A DNA stretch of 64,000 nucleotides from an uncultured beta proteobacterium (lineage in GTDB: Bacteria; Pseudomonadota; Gammaproteobacteria; Burkholderiales; SG8-41), in contig CAIVHG010000015.1 of the NCBI GenBank assembly GCA_903905655.1, positions 46,760-110,759 on the forward strand, given 5' to 3'. Position 1 is the first letter of the stretch, and each line of letters starts with the position of its first letter. The position numbers and the translations under genes are program-made. This document shows positions 43,148 through 54,543 of this stretch, in pieces. Under the pieces are notes generated by a model. That model ran no database searches and had not been told where the DNA came from. It worked only from the letters and a program-made list of their open reading frames with translations.

Positions 43148-44608
43148 TTACAGTTTTTGCAGCAGTGACAGCACGTTGTTGGGCAGGGAATTGGCTTGCG
43201 CCAGCATTGCCGTGCCCGCCTGCGACATGATGGAGTTGCGGGTGAAGGCAGCCGTTTCCGCTGCGAAGTCCGCGTCCTGAATCTGCGCACGTGCGCTGTT
43301 CAGGTTCTGGGAGCTGCTTTGCAGGTTGGCGGTCACCGAAGTAAACCGGCTCTGCAAGGCGCCCAGAGTGGCACGCTGCGTATTCACCGTGGAAAGCGCG
43401 TTGTCTATGCTGGTGATGGCGCTATTGGCCGCGCCCTGAGTCGTGACGTCGACCGACGAGCCGGTGAGCGCGTAGGTGGCCGCAGTCAAGCCGCTGCCGG
43501 TAACGGTGCCGGCGACGGTGATCGCCTTGCCCGCGCTCAACTGGATGGTGCCATAGTCGGTGATGGTGGTGCCGCCCAGGCCGCCTGCGACCGCAAAGCC
43601 GGTGTAGGTTGCGACCGAGCTGGACACCGTAGCGCTGGTGCCGTTGATATCGATGTTGCGGCCGTCGGCGGCGGTGAGCTTGAAGGTCGTGCCCGTGTTG
43701 CGGCTCGCTACGACGCCGGTCGTGCCTTGCTTGGCGTTGATCGCCTGCACCAATTGGTTCACGCGGTCGGAGACGGTCGCGGCTGCAGCCACGGCGCCGA
43801 TGTTGACGCCGTTGATGGAGATGTCGCCCGATGAAATCGCCGTGGTTGCCGAGATCGCCGCCGAGGTGACCGTGGTGGTGGCGGAAGCAGAGACGTTGGT
43901 CGTGCCGTTCTGAGCCTGAATGGCGTTGGCCATCGACAGCGCCGAAGTCGCCCCGCTCTGTACGCCTGCCACATAGGACACCCCGTCATCGCTTTGTGCC
44001 GAGATCGTGGTGCCGTTGACCGTCATCGCACCGCCGACATAGGCATATGCGGTGGTAGCGGAGGCGGTCGCGCCGTAGACTGTCGATTGGCCGCCGATGC
44101 CGATGGCCGAGGTCGTGCCGCTGCTGAGCGTCACGCCGATCGACTGGCTGGCATTGGCGCCGACCTGGAAGGTGGCGGTGCCGAACGTGCCGTCGAGCAG
44201 GTTCTTGCCGTTGAACTGGGTGGAACTCGCGATGCGGTCGATTTCCTGGGAGAGCTGGGTCGCTTCCGTCTGCAGCGAGCTGCGGTCTGCGGAAGTATTG
44301 GTGTCGTTCGCGGACTGCACGGCGATTTCACGCATGCGCTGCAATATACTGCCGATGGAGCCGAGGCTGCCTTCCGCCGTTTGCGCGAGGGAAACCGCGT
44401 CGTTGGCGTTGCGCGTTGCCTGATTCAGGCCGTTGATTTGGGCGGTCATGCGCTGGGAGATCGCGAGGCCCGCAGAATCATCCTTGGCGCTGTTGATGCG
44501 CAGGCCCGAGGACAGGCGCTGGATCGAAGTCTGCAGGGCGCTTTGAGTGTGGGTGAGGTTGCGTTGTGCATCCAGTGACGCGAGATTGGTGTTGATGGTT
44601 AAAGGCAT
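43148..44608 (-). CDS. fliC: Flagellin FliC
   Basis: MPLTINTNLASLDAQRNLTHTQSALQTSIQRLSSGLRINSAKDDSAGLAISQRM; C-term ARAQIQDADFAAETAAFTRNSIMSQAGTAMLAQANSLPNNVLSLLQKL. Confidence 0.98.
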   Translation of the reverse strand: MPLTINTNLASLDAQRNLTHTQSALQTSIQRLSSGLRINSAKDDSAGLAISQRMTAQINGLNQATRNANDAVSLAQTAEGSLGSIGSILQRMREIAVQSANDTNTSADRSSLQTEATQLSQEIDRIASSTQFNGKNLLDGTFGTATFQVGANASQSIGVTLSSGTTSAIGIGGQSTVYGATASATTAYAYVGGAMTVNGTTISAQSDDGVSYVAGVQSGATSALSMANAIQAQNGTTNVSASATTTVTSAAISATTAISSGDISINGVNIGAVAAAATVSDRVNQLVQAINAKQGTTGVVASRNTGTTFKLTAADGRNIDINGTSATVSSSVATYTGFAVAGGLGGTTITDYGTIQLSAGKAITVAGTVTGSGLTAATYALTGSSVDVTTQGAANSAITSIDNALSTVNTQRATLGALQSRFTSVTANLQSSSQNLNSARAQIQDADFAAETAAFTRNSIMSQAGTAMLAQANSLPNNVLSLLQKL

Positions 44609-45062: not shown

Positions 45063-45908
45063 TCAGTCGGCGACCATCAGGCAGCGCTTGCCGGCGCGCT
45101 TGGCGCGATAGAGCGCCGCATCCGCACGCGCGATGACGGCGTCGCGCGCCTCGCCGGTCTTGCGTATCGCCACGCCGCCGCTGAAGCTGAACGCCACCCG
45201 GCGCTTCGCATAGATGAGAGGCTGGCTGTGCAGTTCGCTGCGCACGCGCTCCAGGACCGTGAGTGCCTGCTCGACGTCGGATCCGGGCAGCAACAGCAGG
45301 AACTCCTCTCCGCCATAGCGCACCACTGCATCGCTGGGGCGGATGGTCCGCTGTATGAGCTGGGACAGATGCACGAGCGCCGCGTCTCCCGCCTGATGGC
45401 CGTGGCCGTCGTTGATGTGCTTGAAATCGTCGATGTCGATCAGCGTCACGCCGAGGCAGGCGCGGCTGCGGTCGGCGTGGGAGGACTCGCGCAAATAGAT
45501 TTGGTCCAGGCCGCTGCGGTTGAGGGCGCCGGTCAGGTGATCCACGTGTATGAGCTCGCGCAGCCGTTCTACTTCACGCTGCAAGGCATCGATTTCCCGC
45601 GTCGCGCGCCCCGCCGCCGCGCGCAGGCCATCGGCGCTCGCGAACTCCCTGCTTTCCTGCACCGCCTGGTCCAGCAAACGCACGATCGCATGCAGATCGT
45701 CGCTGCGCCTGATCTTCCGCGCGTACTCCTCGATATGATGAGTATAACGAGCTAAGACCGCGTCATGGGACGGGATGCGTCGGGCAGCAGTTTCGCGCGA
45801 GCGACCCATTCTCAGATTCGCATCTTGCAGCATGGCCATGCCCACGAGATGCGGTTGGATTGGTGGGTTCACGAGGTGCAGCGTTCTTTTGGCTTTGTTC
45901 GCGGGCAT
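45063..45908 (-). CDS. Diguanylate cyclase (GGDEF domain)
   Basis: DHLTGALNRSGLDQIYLRE...LIDIDDFKHINDGHGHQAGDAAL...RPSDAVVRYGGEEF (canonical I-site RxxD plus GGEEF); start at ATG 45908. Confidence 0.93.
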   Translation of the reverse strand: MPANKAKRTLHLVNPPIQPHLVGMAMLQDANLRMGRSRETAARRIPSHDAVLARYTHHIEEYARKIRRSDDLHAIVRLLDQAVQESREFASADGLRAAAGRATREIDALQREVERLRELIHVDHLTGALNRSGLDQIYLRESSHADRSRACLGVTLIDIDDFKHINDGHGHQAGDAALVHLSQLIQRTIRPSDAVVRYGGEEFLLLLPGSDVEQALTVLERVRSELHSQPLIYAKRRVAFSFSGGVAIRKTGEARDAVIARADAALYRAKRAGKRCLMVAD

Positions 45909-46151
45909 CGCGCACTCCTTTGATCTAAACGCCGGCGCATTCCGGCATAGGCAGCGGGGGAGCATCAGGTTAGCAAAGCGCCGCGCCGCGCATCTGACGA
46001 ATACACCCTGAAATGCGCTGCAATTCAACGAACCGTGGGCAAGCCGATTTCCCTACGATGCATCAAAGGCTGGGACGCAGGTCAGGGCTGCGTTCGGCGT
46101 GCCTGCCACAGGAGCGGCGATGCGCGCTGCGCGCAAGTTGGGTGATACCTC

Positions 46152-49100
46152 ATGAATAAAATCGGCCGCAACGATCCGTGCGCGTGTGGCAGCGGCAGGA
46201 AATACAAGCGCTGCTGCATGCACGCCGGCACCGCATCCGCATGCGTGGGCACGGCTTCGTTGCAGGCTGCGGCCGAGCATCATGGCGCCGGGCGCTTGCT
46301 TGAGGCCGAAGCCTGTTGCCAGCAGATGCTCGCTCAGCAGCCTGAGCATGCCGAAGCGCTGCATCTCGCTGGTCTGATCGCGCTGCAGTCGGGAAGGAAT
46401 GAGCGCGCGGTCGAGTTCATCAGCAAGGCGATCGGCCTCCAGCCCACGACCGCGATGCATTACAACCTGGCGGTTGCACTGCAGGGCTTGAGCCGCCTCG
46501 ACGAGGCCATCGCTAACTACGGCCGCATGATCGAGCTGGAGCCGCGCTTCGCCGACGCGCACATGAACCTAGGAGGCGCGCTACAGCTGCAGGGAAAACT
46601 CGATGCCGCGATCGCGAGCTACCGCAATGCGCTGGCCATCGCTCCGCATCATGTCGGCGCCCGCGGCAACCTGGGGCTCGCGCTGCAGGAACTCGGGAAA
46701 ACCGCGGACGCGCTCGCGTGTTTCGAGCAGGCGCTTGCGATCAATCCTCTGCAGCACGAGTCGCACGTGAACCTGGGGCGCGCGCATCAGCAGCAGGGGA
46801 ACCTGGCATCCGCAGCCGAGAGCTACCGCCGGGCGCTCGCCATCAGGCCCGATTACGCACAGGCGCACAGCAATCTGGGCTCCGTGCTGCAGGAGCAGGG
46901 CAAGGCCGACGCCGCGCTCGCAACGTACATGCGGGCACTAACGATACGGCCCGATCTGGCAGGGGCGTACAGCAATTTGCTTTTTTTGCAGGCCTGCCGC
47001 TGTGCGCTTGCGCCGCGCGAGTATCTGGAACGCGCGCGAGCCTGGGAGCAGTCGTTCGTGCCCGAGCCGGAGCGGTGTGCTGCCGCCCGCCGTGCATTCG
47101 AGCGCCCGCCGCTCGCCGGCCGGAGGCTCAAGGTGGGCTACGTGTCGGGAGATTACCGCACGCACGCAGTGAGCTACTTCGCGGAGCAGCTCTTTAAACA
47201 CCACGACCGCACGCGCATCGAACTCTACGCGTACACGACTTGCGGCATTCAGGATGAAGTCACCGATCGATTGCGGGCGCTGGCGGAGCATTGGGTGCCA
47301 TTGATGGGCATGTCCGACGCCGCGGTCGCGCGCCGCATCGAGACGGACGGCATCGACGTGCTGATCGATCTTTCAGGGCACACGGCGAATCATCGGCTGC
47401 AGGTTTTCGCACGCCGGGCGGCCCCGGTGCAGGTGCACTATCTGGGATTCTTCGCGAGCACCGGGCTGACCGAGATGGACTACTTCATCGGCGACGCTGT
47501 GCTCACGCCGGGCGAGACGGATCATCATTTCAGCGAACAGGTGTGGCGGCTGCCGCGCATCTGGGTGAGTTACGACGGCAAGCCGGACGCCCCGCTGCCG
47601 GCATGGACGCCGGACCGCGAGGGCACGGTGTGGGTGGGCAGCTACAACCATCTCAACAAACTCACGCCCGCCACCGTGGCGCTGTGGGCGCAGGTGCTGC
47701 ATGCGGTGCCGTGCGCACGCCTGCTGCTGAAGACCAAGCAGCTTGCCGATGCCGGCAACCGCGCGCGCATCCTCGGGGATTTCTCCTGTCATGGCATTGC
47801 CGCGGACCGCATCGAACTCAAGGACGGCAGCGCCACATTGAGCTGGGCTTCGCACATGGCGTATTACGACCGGCTGGATATCGCGCTCGATCCGGTCGGC
47901 GGGATGGCGGGCGGGACGACCAGTTGCGACGCGCTGTGGATGGGTGTGCCCGTAGTGACGCTGATGGGAGACCGCATGGCCTCGCGCATGACCGCGTCGA
48001 TGCTCGCGGCAATCGGGCATTCCGAGTGGATCGCGGACTGCGAAGCCGAATACGTCGAGAAGGTCGTCGCGCTGGCGCGCGACGTAGCGCAGCGCAGCGC
48101 CCTGCGCGGCGTTCAGCGCAGCTGCATGGCACAAAGTCCGCTGTGCGACGCACGCGGGCTGGCGTTGAGCCTGGAAGACGCGTACTTCGCCATGTATGAA
48201 CGACGGCGTGTACCGAGCACGGCAACGAAAATTGACAGCGCGCCGCTGTTCACTTCGTCGCGCAGGCCGCGCAATGCCCGCGCGCATATCAAGGATGCGA
48301 TCGCACATCACGGCGCCGGTCGCTGGACGGAGGCCGAAGCGGTCTGTGCGCAGATACTCGCGCGCATGCCCGACCACGCCGATGCGCTGCATCTCGCGGG
48401 CCTGATTGCGCAGCAGTCAGGCAGAAGCGAACGCGCAGTGGAGCTGCTCCGCAAGGCGATTCGCAGCAGACCCTCTTCAGGGATGCATTACAACCTGGCG
48501 GTTGCGCTGCAGGCGCTGAGCAGGCTCGACGAGGCGATCGCGCATTATCGGACCGCGCTCGCGCTGGCGCCGAAAGACGCCGATGCGCACGTCAATCTGG
48601 GGGGCGCGCTCCAGCAACAGGGCAAACTCGAGGCGGCCGCCGCGAGCTACAGGCAGGCGCTCGCGATCAATCCCTCTCATGCCGGGGCGCACAGCAACCT
48701 GGGCCTTGCGCTGCAGGAGCTCGGGCAACTCGATGCCGCGCTCGTGAACTACGAGCAGGCGCTGGCGATCAATCCGCTGCAGGCCGCGGCCCACAATAAT
48801 CTGGGGCACGCGCGCAAGGAACTCGGAGAACTCGAGGCAGCCGCCGCGAGCTACCGTCAGGCGCTTGCCATCAAACCCGATTACGCCGAAGCGCACAGCA
48901 ACCTGGGCAGCGTGCTCCAGGAACAGGGCAAGGCCGACGCGGCGCTTGCATCCTACCGTCAGGCGCTGGCGATCCGGCCGGATTTTTCGGGGGCGCACAG
49001 CAATCTGCTGTTCCTGCAGGCCTATCGCTGCACGCTCGATCCGCTGCGCTATCTGGCGAGCGCCCGCGCCTGGGAATTATCCTGCGTGCCGGCGCCCGAG

Positions 49101-50270
49101 CGCAGCGCGGCAGCATCCCGCTGTTTCGAGCGCGCTCTGTCTGCGCCGCGGCTCAGAGTGGGTTATGTGTCCGGAGATTACCGCACGCACGCAGTCAGCT
49201 ACTTCGTGGAGCAGCTGTTTCGGCACCACGACCGCACTCGTGTCGAGCTCTACGCCTATTCGGCGGGCAGCATTCAGGATGCTGTCACCGATCGGCTGCG
49301 CGGGCTGACGGAGCACTGGCTCTCTGTTAAGGGAATGTCGGACGCCGCGCTGCGCGCGCGCATCGAGGCCGACGCTATCGATGTGCTGGTCGATCTGTCG
49401 GGACACACCGCGCATAACCGGCTCGGAGTGTTTGCGCGCCGTGCCGCGCCGGTGCAGGTGCACTACCTGGGATACTTTGCGAGCACCGGACTCACCGAAA
49501 TGGATTACTTCATCGGCGACGAGATGCTCACTCCCGCCGCAGCGGATCACCAGCACAGCGAAAGGGTGTGGCGCCTGCCGCGCATCTGGGTGTGTTATGA
49601 AGGCAAGGACGAGGCCCCGCTGCCCGCATGGCAGCCGGCTGCCGACGGTGCAGTGTGGCTGGGCAGTTTCAACAACCTGAACAAGCTCACTCCTGCCGCT
49701 GTCGCGCTGTGGGCGCAGGTGCTGGACCAAATGCCGCAGGCGCGGCTGCTGCTGAAGACCAAGCAACTGGCGGATGAGGGCAACTGCAGCCGCGTTCTCG
49801 ACGAGTTCGCGCAGCATGGCATCGCAGCGTGCCGCATCGAACTCGCGGACGGCAGCGCCACCCCGGACTGGGCCGCGCACATGGCGTATTACGACCGGCT
49901 GGACATTGCGCTCGATCCCGCGGGCGGCGTGGGCGGCGGGACCACCACCTGCGACGCGCTGTGGATGGGTGTGCCGGTGGTGAGCCTGACGGGAGAGCGT
50001 CTGGCCTCGCGCATGACGGCCTCGATGCTCACTGCAATCGACCGGCCCGAATGGATCGCGCACTCTGAATCCGAATACGTGGCCAAGGTTGTCGCGCTCG
50101 CGCAGGACGTCGCGGGCCGCACGGTGCAGCGTGCTACTCAGCGCGGCCGCATGGCGGTGAGCACGTTGTGCGACGCTGCGAATCTGGCGGTGAGCCTCGA
50201 AGACGCGTACTGCGCCATGCATCAGCGCTGGACGCAGGAGCGCGCTCGTGCGCTGCTCAAGGCGTCGTAA
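46152..50270 (+). CDS. Giant SEC-C + TPR + SPINDLY/OGT-like (GT41) protein with two tandem TPR-OGT modules
   Basis: N-term NDPCACGSGRKYKRCC (SEC-C); two sets of TPRs each followed by VGYVSGDYRTHAVSYF...VDLSGHTA...RRAAPVQVHYLG(F/Y)FASTGLTEMDYFIGD...LLLKTKQL...YDRLDIALDP. Confidence 0.92.
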   Translation: MNKIGRNDPCACGSGRKYKRCCMHAGTASACVGTASLQAAAEHHGAGRLLEAEACCQQMLAQQPEHAEALHLAGLIALQSGRNERAVEFISKAIGLQPTTAMHYNLAVALQGLSRLDEAIANYGRMIELEPRFADAHMNLGGALQLQGKLDAAIASYRNALAIAPHHVGARGNLGLALQELGKTADALACFEQALAINPLQHESHVNLGRAHQQQGNLASAAESYRRALAIRPDYAQAHSNLGSVLQEQGKADAALATYMRALTIRPDLAGAYSNLLFLQACRCALAPREYLERARAWEQSFVPEPERCAAARRAFERPPLAGRRLKVGYVSGDYRTHAVSYFAEQLFKHHDRTRIELYAYTTCGIQDEVTDRLRALAEHWVPLMGMSDAAVARRIETDGIDVLIDLSGHTANHRLQVFARRAAPVQVHYLGFFASTGLTEMDYFIGDAVLTPGETDHHFSEQVWRLPRIWVSYDGKPDAPLPAWTPDREGTVWVGSYNHLNKLTPATVALWAQVLHAVPCARLLLKTKQLADAGNRARILGDFSCHGIAADRIELKDGSATLSWASHMAYYDRLDIALDPVGGMAGGTTSCDALWMGVPVVTLMGDRMASRMTASMLAAIGHSEWIADCEAEYVEKVVALARDVAQRSALRGVQRSCMAQSPLCDARGLALSLEDAYFAMYERRRVPSTATKIDSAPLFTSSRRPRNARAHIKDAIAHHGAGRWTEAEAVCAQILARMPDHADALHLAGLIAQQSGRSERAVELLRKAIRSRPSSGMHYNLAVALQALSRLDEAIAHYRTALALAPKDADAHVNLGGALQQQGKLEAAAASYRQALAINPSHAGAHSNLGLALQELGQLDAALVNYEQALAINPLQAAAHNNLGHARKELGELEAAAASYRQALAIKPDYAEAHSNLGSVLQEQGKADAALASYRQALAIRPDFSGAHSNLLFLQAYRCTLDPLRYLASARAWELSCVPAPERSAAASRCFERALSAPRLRVGYVSGDYRTHAVSYFVEQLFRHHDRTRVELYAYSAGSIQDAVTDRLRGLTEHWLSVKGMSDAALRARIEADAIDVLVDLSGHTAHNRLGVFARRAAPVQVHYLGYFASTGLTEMDYFIGDEMLTPAAADHQHSERVWRLPRIWVCYEGKDEAPLPAWQPAADGAVWLGSFNNLNKLTPAAVALWAQVLDQMPQARLLLKTKQLADEGNCSRVLDEFAQHGIAACRIELADGSATPDWAAHMAYYDRLDIALDPAGGVGGGTTTCDALWMGVPVVSLTGERLASRMTASMLTAIDRPEWIAHSESEYVAKVVALAQDVAGRTVQRATQRGRMAVSTLCDAANLAVSLEDAYCAMHQRWTQERARALLKAS
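46230..48205 (+). repeat. Tandem repeat module 1 of the OGT gene
   Basis: MHYNLAVALQGLSRLDEAIA at about 46456 recurs as MHYNLAVALQALSRLDEAIA at about 48484; about 2.03 kb periodicity. Confidence 0.85.
48260..50235 (+). repeat. Tandem repeat module 2 of the OGT gene
   Basis: Whole-module alignment to module 1 through ...LASRMTASML(A/T)AI...EW IA...EYV.KVVALA.DVA. Confidence 0.85.
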
Positions 50271-50273
50271 CGG

Positions 50274-51050
50274 ATGAGCGCGTCCCTGACTACTTCAAGC
50301 CCGGCACAGCCGCGACCCGATCTGGCGTTCGTGGTCAGCGATCTGCAGCGCACGTTCATGAGAGTTGCCGGCAACCTGCGTTGGTACGAACAAAGCTGGC
50401 TCGGCGTGCCGGTGTGGCAGCTCGCCGATGATCTGGTGGCGCTGCAGCGCATCGTGTGCGATGCCCAACCCAGATGGATCGTCGAGACCGGAACCAAGTT
50501 CGGTGGTTCGGCGATTTTCTTCGCTTCGCTGCTCGCACTGCTGGGACGCACGCCTCAGACCGGCGGCGTGATCACGGTCGACGCGCACGAGACCGCTGAG
50601 GCTCGGGCACTGCTGGCAGACGAGCCGCACCATCTGGCGCCCTTCGTGCGTCAACGCATCATCGGCGATGCCAAAGCGCCGCAAACGCTGGCGGCCATTC
50701 GCGCGATAATCGCATCAGATCCCGGACCCGTATTGGTGTTCCTGGACGATTGGCACGATGGCGAGCACGTCTACGCCGAACTCGGGCTTTATTCGCAACT
50801 GGTGACACCCGGCGGATTCCTGATCGTGGCCGACACCACATTCGCGGATCTCGCGGATACGCCAATCGTCGCGCCATGCGAAAAATACCCCGATGCAAAA
50901 CGATCCAATCCGCGCGTGGCGCTGCAGCGCTTTCTGGCGCAGCGCAGCGACTTCGTCGCGGTCGGTGATTACACCCGGACCGGGATCAGCAATTTTCCAG
51001 ACAGCGTGCTGCGCAGGGTCGCCGGGGGCGGGGAGGGTGAGCCTGGATGA
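50274..51050 (+). CDS. CmcI/cephalosporin-hydroxylase-like SAM-dependent methyltransferase family protein
   Basis: RWIVETGTKFGGSAIFFASLLALLG...GPVLVFLDDWHDGEHVYAELGLYSQLVTPGGFLIVADT. Confidence 0.78.
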   Translation: MSASLTTSSPAQPRPDLAFVVSDLQRTFMRVAGNLRWYEQSWLGVPVWQLADDLVALQRIVCDAQPRWIVETGTKFGGSAIFFASLLALLGRTPQTGGVITVDAHETAEARALLADEPHHLAPFVRQRIIGDAKAPQTLAAIRAIIASDPGPVLVFLDDWHDGEHVYAELGLYSQLVTPGGFLIVADTTFADLADTPIVAPCEKYPDAKRSNPRVALQRFLAQRSDFVAVGDYTRTGISNFPDSVLRRVAGGGEGEPG

Positions 51051-51583
51051 TACGAAAGGGCATACACCGCACGGCAGTGGTGGAGTGTTACGGCTCCGCA
51101 GCTATACCCGAATCTACGATCATCGAGCCGCTTGCCGTGGTCTACGTGGGCGAGCGGGGCAGGCTCACATTGGGCGAGAGGAACACGCTCTATCCGGGGG
51201 TCACGCTACGCATCGATCAGGGATGGATGGAAACCGGCGCTGAGGTTTCATTCGGATCAGGCTGCCACATTTATGAGCCGCGCGCCGGCCTCACCATCGG
51301 CGACCACTGCATGATCGCCGGCGGGGTTCTGATCTGCGGCGTCAACCATGGCTATGCCTTGAGGGGCGTGCCGATGCGGCAGCAGGCAAGCGCCGCGGCG
51401 CCGATCGTCATCGGAGTAGATGTCTGGATCGGCATGGGCGCCATCATCCTGCCGGGCGTCACGCTTGGCGCTGGCGCGATCGTCGGCGCGGGAGCGGTCG
51501 TCACCTCCGACGTTGCGCCCGGTGCGATGGTGAATGGGGTCCCGGCGAGATTCGTGAAATCCAGAAAGGGGGTTGGAGCATGA
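51047..51583 (+). CDS. Left-handed beta-helix (hexapeptide) acyltransferase
   Basis: Hexapeptide repeats ...GDHCMIAGGVLICGVNHGY...VDVWIGMGAIILPGVTLGAGAIVGAGAVVTSDVAPGAMVNGVPARFVK; ATGA overlap. Confidence 0.9.
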   Translation: MIRKGIHRTAVVECYGSAAIPESTIIEPLAVVYVGERGRLTLGERNTLYPGVTLRIDQGWMETGAEVSFGSGCHIYEPRAGLTIGDHCMIAGGVLICGVNHGYALRGVPMRQQASAAAPIVIGVDVWIGMGAIILPGVTLGAGAIVGAGAVVTSDVAPGAMVNGVPARFVKSRKGVGA

Positions 51584-52119
51584 AGCTGCATCTGGGCTGC
51601 GGCCCGCGCTACATTCCAGGGTGGGTGCATATGGACGCACGGCCCGCGCCGCATGTCGACATCGTGGGCCCCGTGGAGCGGTTGCCGCTCGCTGACGCCA
51701 GCGTTTCTTTCATCTATGCGAGCCATATCCTCGAGCATTTCGACCGCCATCACTACAAGGCGGTGCTCGCGGAATGGTACAGGGTCCTGGCAAGCCAAGG
51801 CGTGTTGCGCCTGGCGGTCCCGGATTTCGCGGCGTGCGCGGCGATCTACTACGAGCGCGGCCTCGAAGACGGCCTGAGCGGACTGGTCGGGCTGATCGTC
51901 GGCGGGCAGCGCAACGGCTACGATTACCACAAGATGATCTTCGACGAGGATTACCTGCGCGACGATCTGCTCGAGATCGGCTTCGGGGAAGTGCGGCGCT
52001 GGGACTGGCGAGCGACCGAGCATGCAGCGGTCGACGACTATTCCCAATCCTACCTGCCGCATCTGCACAAGGACGACGGCCGGCTGATGAGCCTCAACCT
52101 GGAGGCGGTGAAAGCCTGA
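51580..52119 (+). CDS. Class I SAM-dependent methyltransferase
   Basis: MKLHLGCGPRYIPGWVHMDARPAPHVDIVGPVERLPLADASVSFIYASHILEHF; ATGA overlap with acyltransferase. Confidence 0.9.
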   Translation: MKLHLGCGPRYIPGWVHMDARPAPHVDIVGPVERLPLADASVSFIYASHILEHFDRHHYKAVLAEWYRVLASQGVLRLAVPDFAACAAIYYERGLEDGLSGLVGLIVGGQRNGYDYHKMIFDEDYLRDDLLEIGFGEVRRWDWRATEHAAVDDYSQSYLPHLHKDDGRLMSLNLEAVKA

Positions 52120-52405: not shown

Positions 52406-53038
52406 CTAGTCCACGAGGTTGTGGGTGACGGCGTAGTGGGTGAGCTCGGCGTTGTTCTTGAGCCGCATCTTCTCCAGCACCCGCGCACGGTAGACGCTGA
52501 CGGTCTTGGCGCTGATCGACATCTGCTGCGCAATGTCGATCAGGCTCTTGCCCGCGGCGATCTGGCACAGCGTCTGGTATTCGCGCTCCGACAGCGCTTC
52601 GTGCAGCTGCTTGTCGCCGTCATCGCCCAAGGCATTGGCCAACTCCTCGGCCGCCGCGTTGGTCAGATACTTGTGTCCGGCGTGCACCGTGCGGATCGCG
52701 CCCAGCAACTCGGCGGGTGCGCTCTGCTTGGTCAGATATCCGGACGCTCCCGCCTTGAGCGCGCGCACCGCGTACTGCTTTTCGGGATAGGCCGAGAGCA
52801 TCAGGACGTGTATCTTGGGAAATTCCCTGCGGATCATGGTCAGCGTTTCGATGCCGTTGCGGTCCGGCATCGAGATATCGAGCAGCACCACGTCGCAGGG
52901 CGTGGCGCGCAGCATACGCATTGCCTCTGCGCTGCTGCCGGCTTCGCCAGTGACCTGGACGTCTTTGCTCTCGGCTGCGATCTGATGCAGGCCGCGCCGC
53001 AGTATGGCGTGGTCGTCGACGATGGTTATGCGTATCAT
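52406..53038 (-). CDS. NarL/FixJ family response regulator
   Basis: REC (IVDDHAIL...DVVLLDISMPDRNG) plus LuxR HTH (LSEREYQTLCQIAAGKSLIDIAQQMSISAKTVSVYRARVLEKM). Confidence 0.94.
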   Translation of the reverse strand: MIRITIVDDHAILRRGLHQIAAESKDVQVTGEAGSSAEAMRMLRATPCDVVLLDISMPDRNGIETLTMIRREFPKIHVLMLSAYPEKQYAVRALKAGASGYLTKQSAPAELLGAIRTVHAGHKYLTNAAAEELANALGDDGDKQLHEALSEREYQTLCQIAAGKSLIDIAQQMSISAKTVSVYRARVLEKMRLKNNAELTHYAVTHNLVD

Positions 53039-54543
53039 GGATTCTCAGGCGTATCGATGTCGAGTTGAAGTTGACGGGCGGATTCGATCGGCAGCATCAC
53101 GCGCACGACCGTGCCCGCCCCGGGCTTGCCCTCGACGGTGACTTCGCCGCCCAGATGGCGGGCGCGCTCGCGCATGCCGCGCAGGCCGAAAGACGCCGCC
53201 TTGTGCAAGTCGTCTTCGGTCATGCCGCGGCCATCGTCGGTTACCATCAGGCAGACTTCGTCCTGCTCGATGTCAAGCAGGACCGCGACGCGGGTTGCGG
53301 ACGCGTGCTTGGTGACGTTGGTCAGAGTCTCGCGGAAGATGCTGAACAGGGCGGTGGCGAGTTCGGCATCCAGATGACTGTCCTCTCCCGAGCAGCGCAC
53401 CGTGCATGGCATATTCATGCGGTGCGAAAATTGCCCGGCTTCCCATTCGACTGCAGCCGAGAGACCGAGGTCCAGCAGCGGCGGCCGCAGATCGTGCGCG
53501 ATGCGCGCCGTGATCTCCATCGTGTGGTCGATCAGTGTTTCCACCGAGTCCAGCTTGTTGCGGAGATCTGGGGATGCTTCGCCGAGCCGGCTGGCGAGCG
53601 ACAGGATCTCGATTTTCATCGCCGTCAGGTTGCCGCCGATTTCATCGTGGACTTCGCGCGCAATGCGCGTGCGCTCGATTTCCTTCGCCTTCTGCAGATG
53701 GGACGAGAGTTCCGAGAGCTGCTGGCGCGAGCGCACGAGCTCTAATTCCGCTGCTTTGCGATCCGATACATTCTCGATGATTCCATCCCACTGGATGCGG
53801 TCATCTTTCAGCAGGCGCGGGCGCATGCGAACCTCGATCCATTTTACGCGCCCGTCGGAGGCAGCAGAGATGCGCCCTTCCCAACTCACTGGTTGAAGCG
53901 TCAGCGCCGATTCGGCGATGCGATCCTGCAGACTGACGTTGCCGCCATCGAGCATGATGTTGAACAGGTGCCCGACATCGGCTTGCAGAACCTGCGGCGT
54001 CACCTCGAGCAGCCGGTTGCTGGCATCGCTGATGTACGAGATCCCGTAGCTGCCCTGGGGATCGCAGGTCAACTGGAAGACCACCCCCGGAATGTTGGCG
54101 ACCATCGCGCGCAACTGGCTTTCGGCCTGCTCGGTTTCAACGCGCAGCTTGCGCACCGAGCGGCGGATCACGCTTTCGCGCAGCTCGCGCTCGATCGCCG
54201 GGACCAGCCGCGAGGGATTGGTCTTCATCACGTAGTCGTTGGCCCCCGCGCGCATCGCCTCCACCGCGAATACTTCGCTCATGGTCCCGGAGGCGATGAT
54301 GAAGGGCAGGTCCGGATCGTGCATCTTGGCGAGCTGCAGGGCATCGAGGCCGCTGAACTGCGGCAGGTGATAATCGGAGATCACGAGATTCCAGGGCTTG
54401 CGCGCGAACTCGCTGCGCATCTCCGCCGCGGTTTCGACGCGTGCATGTTCGACGCGATAGCCGCCGCGCGCGATTTCGCCGATTAGCAGGTCTGCGTCAT
54501 CGAGCGAATGCTCGACCATCAGCACGCGTAACTGCGTACGCAT
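53035..54543 (-). CDS. REC-PAS-HisKA_3-HATPase sensor kinase
   Basis: N-term MVEHSLDDADLLIGEI...LVISDYHLPQFSG; C-term EIERTRIAREVHDEIGGNLTAMKIE and DDGRGMTEDDLHKAASFGLRGMRERARHLGGEV; overlaps regulator by 4 nt. Confidence 0.92.
   Translation of the reverse strand: MRTQLRVLMVEHSLDDADLLIGEIARGGYRVEHARVETAAEMRSEFARKPWNLVISDYHLPQFSGLDALQLAKMHDPDLPFIIASGTMSEVFAVEAMRAGANDYVMKTNPSRLVPAIERELRESVIRRSVRKLRVETEQAESQLRAMVANIPGVVFQLTCDPQGSYGISYISDASNRLLEVTPQVLQADVGHLFNIMLDGGNVSLQDRIAESALTLQPVSWEGRISAASDGRVKWIEVRMRPRLLKDDRIQWDGIIENVSDRKAAELELVRSRQQLSELSSHLQKAKEIERTRIAREVHDEIGGNLTAMKIEILSLASRLGEASPDLRNKLDSVETLIDHTMEITARIAHDLRPPLLDLGLSAAVEWEAGQFSHRMNMPCTVRCSGEDSHLDAELATALFSIFRETLTNVTKHASATRVAVLLDIEQDEVCLMVTDDGRGMTEDDLHKAASFGLRGMRERARHLGGEVTVEGKPGAGTVVRVMLPIESARQLQLDIDTPENP

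Follow-up and report, generated by a model that had tools for sequence, protein, structure and literature searches.

We analyzed a window of 64,000 nucleotides from an uncultured beta proteobacterium (contig CAIVHG010000015.1 of assembly GCA_903905655.1; all positions are those of the window), in which positions 46152–50270 of the forward strand form a single ATG-started open reading frame (ORF) of 1372 amino acids with 0 internal stops. By the ORF, Pfam and a GT41 profile, seeded on the two modules of this protein and then broadened with fetched relatives, the product is a predicted two-module SEC-C/TPR/GT41 protein glycosyltransferase. At its N terminus lies a SEC-C metal-binding motif (residues 6–23, positions 46167–46220) of the form CxCGSGxKYKxCC, assigned to the SEC-C family by PF02810 (30.3 bits against a cut-off of 20.4) and present once, ahead of module 1 only. 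Module 1 consists of a tetratricopeptide repeat (TPR) array (about residues 37–282, positions 46260–46997), identified by Pfam, AlphaFold2 (AF2) helices and a 34-residue Asn ladder, and a GT41 catalytic domain (residues 326–683, positions 47127–48200). After a linker (about residues 684–713, positions 48201–48290), in which the SEC-C motif is not duplicated, module 2 repeats the arrangement, with a second TPR array (about residues 714–957, positions 48291–49022) and a second GT41 domain (residues 1002–1358, positions 49155–50225).

Both catalytic domains are complete according to the GT41 profile and AF2, and PF13844 (Glyco_transf_41) matched with 323 bits (cut-off 25) in four stretches, i.e. 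the N- and C-terminal catalytic halves, twice, with many TPRs matched besides. The Asn-ladder motif occurs six times per module at 34-residue spacing (residues 103, 137, 171, 205, 239 and 273, and residues 779, 813, 847, 881, 915 and 949), giving a module-to-module offset of 676 residues, or 2028 bp. These results bear out a preliminary description, made from the sequence alone, of two homologous but diverged TPR-OGT-like modules in one 1372-residue ORF behind a SEC-C motif, with a period of about 2.03 kb.

The modules are 71% identical across 650 amino acids (896 bits), and their codon positions 1, 2 and 3 are 79, 81 and 60% identical, respectively. By the method of Nei and Gojobori (NG86), nonsynonymous (dN) and synonymous (dS) divergence between them are 0.22 and 0.78, with a dN/dS of about 0.28. 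Because third codon positions are far less conserved than the first and second, and dN is well below dS, both halves have been held by purifying selection, which marks the duplication as old and speaks against recent copying or an echo of assembly. The source assembly, the only one available for the species, is fragmentary (113 contigs, 69.7% complete), and in a metagenome-type assembly two strain variants or adjacent genes might be misjoined. Such an artefact is nevertheless highly improbable, because the longest exact stretch common to both halves is only 28 nucleotides; in addition, the junction between the modules is unique, in-frame sequence, 4.1 kb are free of stops, the module proteins differ by 29%, the downstream genes stand in the expected order, and fused GT41 examples arise independently in other assemblies.

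Each catalytic domain retains the key residues of SPINDLY (SPY), the Arabidopsis protein O-fucosyltransferase of GT41, in which K665A kills activity, S496A, Y744A and T748A reduce it, and N661 and H728 touch GDP (PMC9715652). The equivalents of SPY H495, N661, K665, H728 and T748 are H338, N499, K503, H568 and T589 in module 1 and H1013, N1174, K1178, H1243 and T1264 in module 2; the essential Lys (SPY K665, human OGT K842, Thermobaculum terrenum OGT K341) and the N-terminal catalytic His are present in each domain (K503 and K1178, H338 and H1013). When module 1 was modelled alone with AF2, the predicted local distance difference test (pLDDT) score was 93.8 and the predicted template modelling score (pTM) 0.89. 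It was modelled separately because a run on residues 180–1372, in which the module 2 blocks were mostly above 90, gave a poor first catalytic half, the alignment rows going to the second half. In Foldseek comparisons with the PDB, the top matches of both models were SPINDLY (8dtf, 7y4i), the best for each, and T. terrenum OGT (5djs), with template modelling (TM) scores by target of 0.91–0.92, and both models show the N-terminally fused TPR superhelix and GT-B fold that characterize GT41. Thus, the residue alignment and the structure prediction, both proposed as checks in the preliminary description, agree with its assignment of the protein as GT41/SPINDLY-like.

The likeness to SPINDLY, which extends to the Asn-ladder TPR superhelix, has limits. 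SPY has a single module and no SEC-C motif, whereas the window protein has two modules; furthermore, the donor loop, (L)DPxGGxxGGTT in both modules and in single-module relatives, lacks an equivalent of the SPY Y744 Tyr, which sets these proteins apart from SPINDLY proper, and GDP-fucose use is not implied. Because this Tyr is missing, the donor sugar may be neither GDP-fucose nor UDP-GlcNAc. T. terrenum OGT and Xanthomonas XcOGT (2jlb) share the fold, the absence of an intervening domain and the equivalent of Lys341/842, but have one module, fewer TPRs and no reported SEC-C motif.

Judged by residues and models, both heads look competent. The preliminary description had also raised the possibility that one half is catalytic and the other serves recognition, merely binding or positioning the acceptor as a pseudo-enzyme. 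Eight single-module relatives share 124 invariant positions in the catalytic domain; of these, 3 are changed in module 1 only, 8 in module 2 only and 1 in both, a bias that would fit such a loss, and loss does occur in the family: in a double-GT41 protein of another genome (G241, L112:1041–5720, + strand), the second domain carries Arg at the position of the catalytic Lys, and the Thr that binds the donor (SPY T748) is replaced by Ile. We consider a pseudo-enzyme half improbable for the window protein, because both modules keep the H, N, K, H and T residues at SPY-essential or donor-binding positions; both are also under strong purifying selection and are confidently folded by AF2.

The two-module gene is the first of a four-gene cassette of the order GT41, CmcI/rhamnosyl O-methyltransferase-like protein (50274–51050, + strand; PF04989, 133 bits), hexapeptide-repeat acyltransferase (51047–51583, + strand; PF00132) and S-adenosylmethionine (SAM)-dependent methyltransferase of the Methyltransf_11 type (51580–52119, + strand; PF08241). 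The same cassette was found in a congener (G010, L071), in a second genome of the genus (G006, L072, where the cassette contains an additional radical-SAM gene) and in a genome of another family (G186, L116), with small proteins 70–82% identical to those of the window; in a further genome (G302), the GT41 gene and the final methyltransferase are present. The CmcI-like protein is 77, 70 and 75% identical in G010, G006 and G186, respectively, the acyltransferase 76–82% in the relatives' cassettes, and the final methyltransferase 74–80% in G010, G006, G186 and G302. In all four genomes the cassette GT41 is single-module, and SEC-C was seen in G010, G186 and G302. The G010 enzyme (SEC-C-TPR-GT41, 769 amino acids) shares with the window protein the SEC-C motif, the gene order and a catalytic domain that is 70–72% identical, and its three companion proteins are 77–82% identical to those of the window; it differs in having one TPR-GT41 module.

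Within the two-module protein, the modules are sisters in phylogenetic trees (support 100/98 and 99/98), and approximately unbiased (AU) tests reject trees that pair one module alone with the single-module G010 orthologue (p = 0.003 and p = 0.007). The two modules align without TPR loss and have equal TPR counts, which do not match those of the relatives. Because the modules are sisters and the same-cassette orthologues in G010, G006 and G186 are single-module, the simplest account is that an ordinary SEC-C-TPR-GT41 enzyme with one module underwent a lineage-specific, in-frame duplication of the whole module, once its lineage had separated from that of G010. A SEC-C remnant was sought in the inter-module linker and not found (p = 0.58 for protein and p = 0.13 for DNA), and the copied module took no recognisable SEC-C along.

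In the window, the cassette stands in a flagellar locus. It is bounded on the left by a GGDEF diguanylate cyclase gene (45063–46028, − strand; PF00990), which is part of the ancestral locus and holds the same place in five congeners, and on the right by genes for a NarL-type response regulator and a histidine kinase (52406–54543, − strand), which in these five congeners adjoin GGDEF/fliC without a cassette. The flagellin gene fliC (43148–44608, − strand; PF00669/PF00700), which is also present here in congeners whose locus is without the cassette, lies 1.5 kb from the two-module gene, on the opposite strand and with the GGDEF gene between. The arrangement in the five congeners (L136–L140) is fliT-fliS-fliD-fliC-GGDEF(-GGDEF)-narL-kinase, with no GT41 cassette, and G010 has both the empty flagellar locus and, at another place, the cassette. 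Because five congeners have the same locus without it, these comparisons are most simply read as the entry of the cassette between the GGDEF and narL genes in the lineage of the window. The genes that flank the cassette in relatives include those for phosphofructokinase and RNase E in G186, for COQ7 and a nucleoside-phosphorylase-type protein in G010 and for an FAA hydrolase in G006. The GC content of the cassette (63–66%, against 63.8% for the window) gives no compositional distinction, and an inverted-repeat scan revealed nothing readable as mobile-element ends. We regard the four genes as a portable glycan cassette.

These relationships bear on the possibility that the protein is a dedicated flagellin O-glycosyltransferase whose two heads would modify two sites or faces of the adjacent FliC before export, in the manner of the one-headed FlmG of Caulobacter crescentus. 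FlmG is a cytoplasmic enzyme in which a TPR domain serves the acceptor and a GT-B domain the transfer, as in the mechanism proposed below; the TPR domain binds flagellins, and FlmG is required and, given pseudaminic acid, sufficient for their modification (PMC7591256). It differs in being single-module, 596 amino acids long and part of a pseudaminic-acid pathway, and the comparison drawn here is of domain layout and function. In favour of flagellin, besides the short distance to fliC, other genomes have GT41 genes close to those for flagellin (L060, L113, L114 and L065), and all five cassette genomes checked have FlhA and Flagellin_N matches. Against it stand the OGT-free flagellar locus of the five congeners, the intervening GGDEF gene and opposite strand, the orthologous cassettes that adjoin housekeeping genes, the nine other GT41 genes of the same genome that could do the job, and a genome with a double GT41 (G307) in which neither flagellin nor FlhA was found when looked for. 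We regard a dedicated flagellin enzyme as possible, though on balance unlikely. The preliminary description had taken proximity to flagellin as evidence for the target; because that position is recent and not conserved among relatives, it proves little, and in lacking a conserved linkage to flagellin genes the cassette departs from a FlmG-like system. The case for flagellin as the acceptor is thereby weakened without being removed: because flagellins have GT41 genes nearby in several genomes and the TPR-type enzyme FlmG has been proven to glycosylate flagellin, flagellin is a plausible, unproven acceptor.

Other multi-module GT41 proteins were identified in searches that included one of 300 genomes across the order; the searches were biased to window-like proteins, such that an overall frequency of multi-module forms is not derivable from them. 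Single-module SEC-C-TPR-GT41 ORFs are common, with a dozen or more in the loci that were fetched. The search for the same fused architecture, which the preliminary description had recommended, yielded four further stop-free double-GT41 ORFs, namely in G307 (L111, 1394 amino acids), G241 (L112, 1560), Rhodocyclaceae REEB364 (L065, 1417) and G024 (L077, 1538), and two triple-GT41 ORFs, in G476 (L152:164–7681, − strand, 2506 amino acids) and G427 (L153:4420–11805, + strand, 2462 amino acids). The uniqueness which that description implied is thus not upheld; the multi-module architecture is rare, not unique. The two species with triples belong to a single genus within the phylum of the window, and the triples keep the catalytic Lys in all three domains. 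SEC-C was not found in the doubles of G307, G241, REEB364 and G024. Like the window protein, these ORFs combine several TPR-GT41 modules in a single frame, two in the doubles and three in the triples; unlike it, they belong to other GT41 subclades with separate origins, and the G241 protein lacks the catalytic Lys in one of its heads. The two domains of a double are sisters in REEB364 and in G241; those of G307 are sisters in one tree (96/90) and unresolved in another, and those of G024 are distant paralogues. Because the domains are sisters in REEB364 and G241 and distant paralogues in G024, fusion or duplication of GT41 modules has occurred several times independently.

A type IV pilin gene of the same strand precedes the G307 double (L111:8205–12986, − strand) by 127 bp, suggesting pilin as its acceptor. 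The REEB364 double has fliD-fliS-fliT and YcgR genes upstream and hexapeptide, Gfo/Idh and FkbM genes after it, and the neighbours of the G024 double encode an RTX-repeat protein and an aminotransferase. By gene context, the neighbours of multi-GT41 genes point to surface proteins. Plasmid records that seemingly covered 95% of the query were rejected as fusions, being single-module genes of about 2 kb that match both halves. No description of multi-module GT41 proteins was found in a limited search of the open-access literature, and literature searches on BCAL0111 and on SEC-C with TPR glycosyltransferases found nothing useful.

Additional GT41 genes were observed in the genome of the window (70% complete), where nine more single-module TPR-GT41 ORFs lie on contigs C20, C26, C42, C58, C70, C77, C92 (two) and C101; these nine paralogues (loci L001–L008 and L018) form one lineage-specific clade (100/98), a large expansion. 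Paramagnetospirillum marisnigri (L062) has an array of adjacent GT41 genes, in which seven ORFs within 17 kb match GT41. In G029 (L036:3–3599, − strand), two same-frame GT41 genes are parted by a single TAG, possibly a step just before fusion.

The duplication might also be neutral or a matter of dosage, with redundant heads, no new property and a fusion that is merely tolerated. Because a single stop codon is all that divides the two in-frame G029 genes, fusion needs only the loss of one stop; separate tandem GT41 genes are common (L060, L062, L074 and L113), and the donor loop type is the same in both modules of the window protein. In opposition, both modules have stayed intact while about 0.8 changes accumulated per synonymous site; multi-module forms have evolved repeatedly, and two species of one genus have kept a triple. 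We therefore give a neutral origin a minor share of the probability, as an alternative that deserves mention without being favoured.

We consider it moderately probable that duplication of a single-module cassette enzyme gave rise to a cytoplasmic protein O-glycosyltransferase with two heads, whose acceptor is an exported surface protein. In this account, each TPR superhelix would hold an extended stretch of the acceptor that contains Ser/Thr and offer it to the GT-B active site of the same module; both heads would be active, and two sites would be modified simultaneously or successively. The SEC-C motif may help to engage nascent or secretion-competent clients, and the transferred sugar would then probably be methylated and/or acylated by the three downstream cassette enzymes. 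SecA has SEC-C motifs that bind SecB, and similar motifs are present in YecA, according to a preprint a chaperone that interacts with SecB (PMC8076867); because of these precedents, it is a fair guess by analogy that the motif plays a part in the encounter with exported clients.

Several observations weigh against this account. The whole clade is known from sequences and models, and sugar transfer to Ser/Thr is a prediction; T. terrenum OGT, a close structural match, was inactive in vitro (PMC4683255). The donor loop departs from that of SPY and OGT clade-wide, such that the donor, and perhaps the reaction, may differ. The larger number of departures in module 2 (8 vs. 3 of 124) hints at relaxation or specialisation of that head, and concerted evolution or gene conversion between the modules could mimic their sister grouping.

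A wider and decidedly more speculative proposal is that multi-headed TPR-GT41 proteins are a recurrent, convergent bacterial way to glycosylate several sites of one surface-filament subunit per encounter, with a separate acceptor groove for every head. On this proposal, the window protein would belong to the group, its two heads would both be active, and its SEC-C motif would tether it to nascent clients.

The two-module architecture is real, well preserved and fairly rare. How GT41 enzymes choose acceptor sites is an open question, and natural two- and three-headed forms, whether intact, as in the window, or with one head damaged, as in G241, provide a ready-made test of the role of the TPR array in acceptor choice. 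The multi-headed forms also bear on the cooperation of heads and on how bacteria decorate abundant surface proteins.

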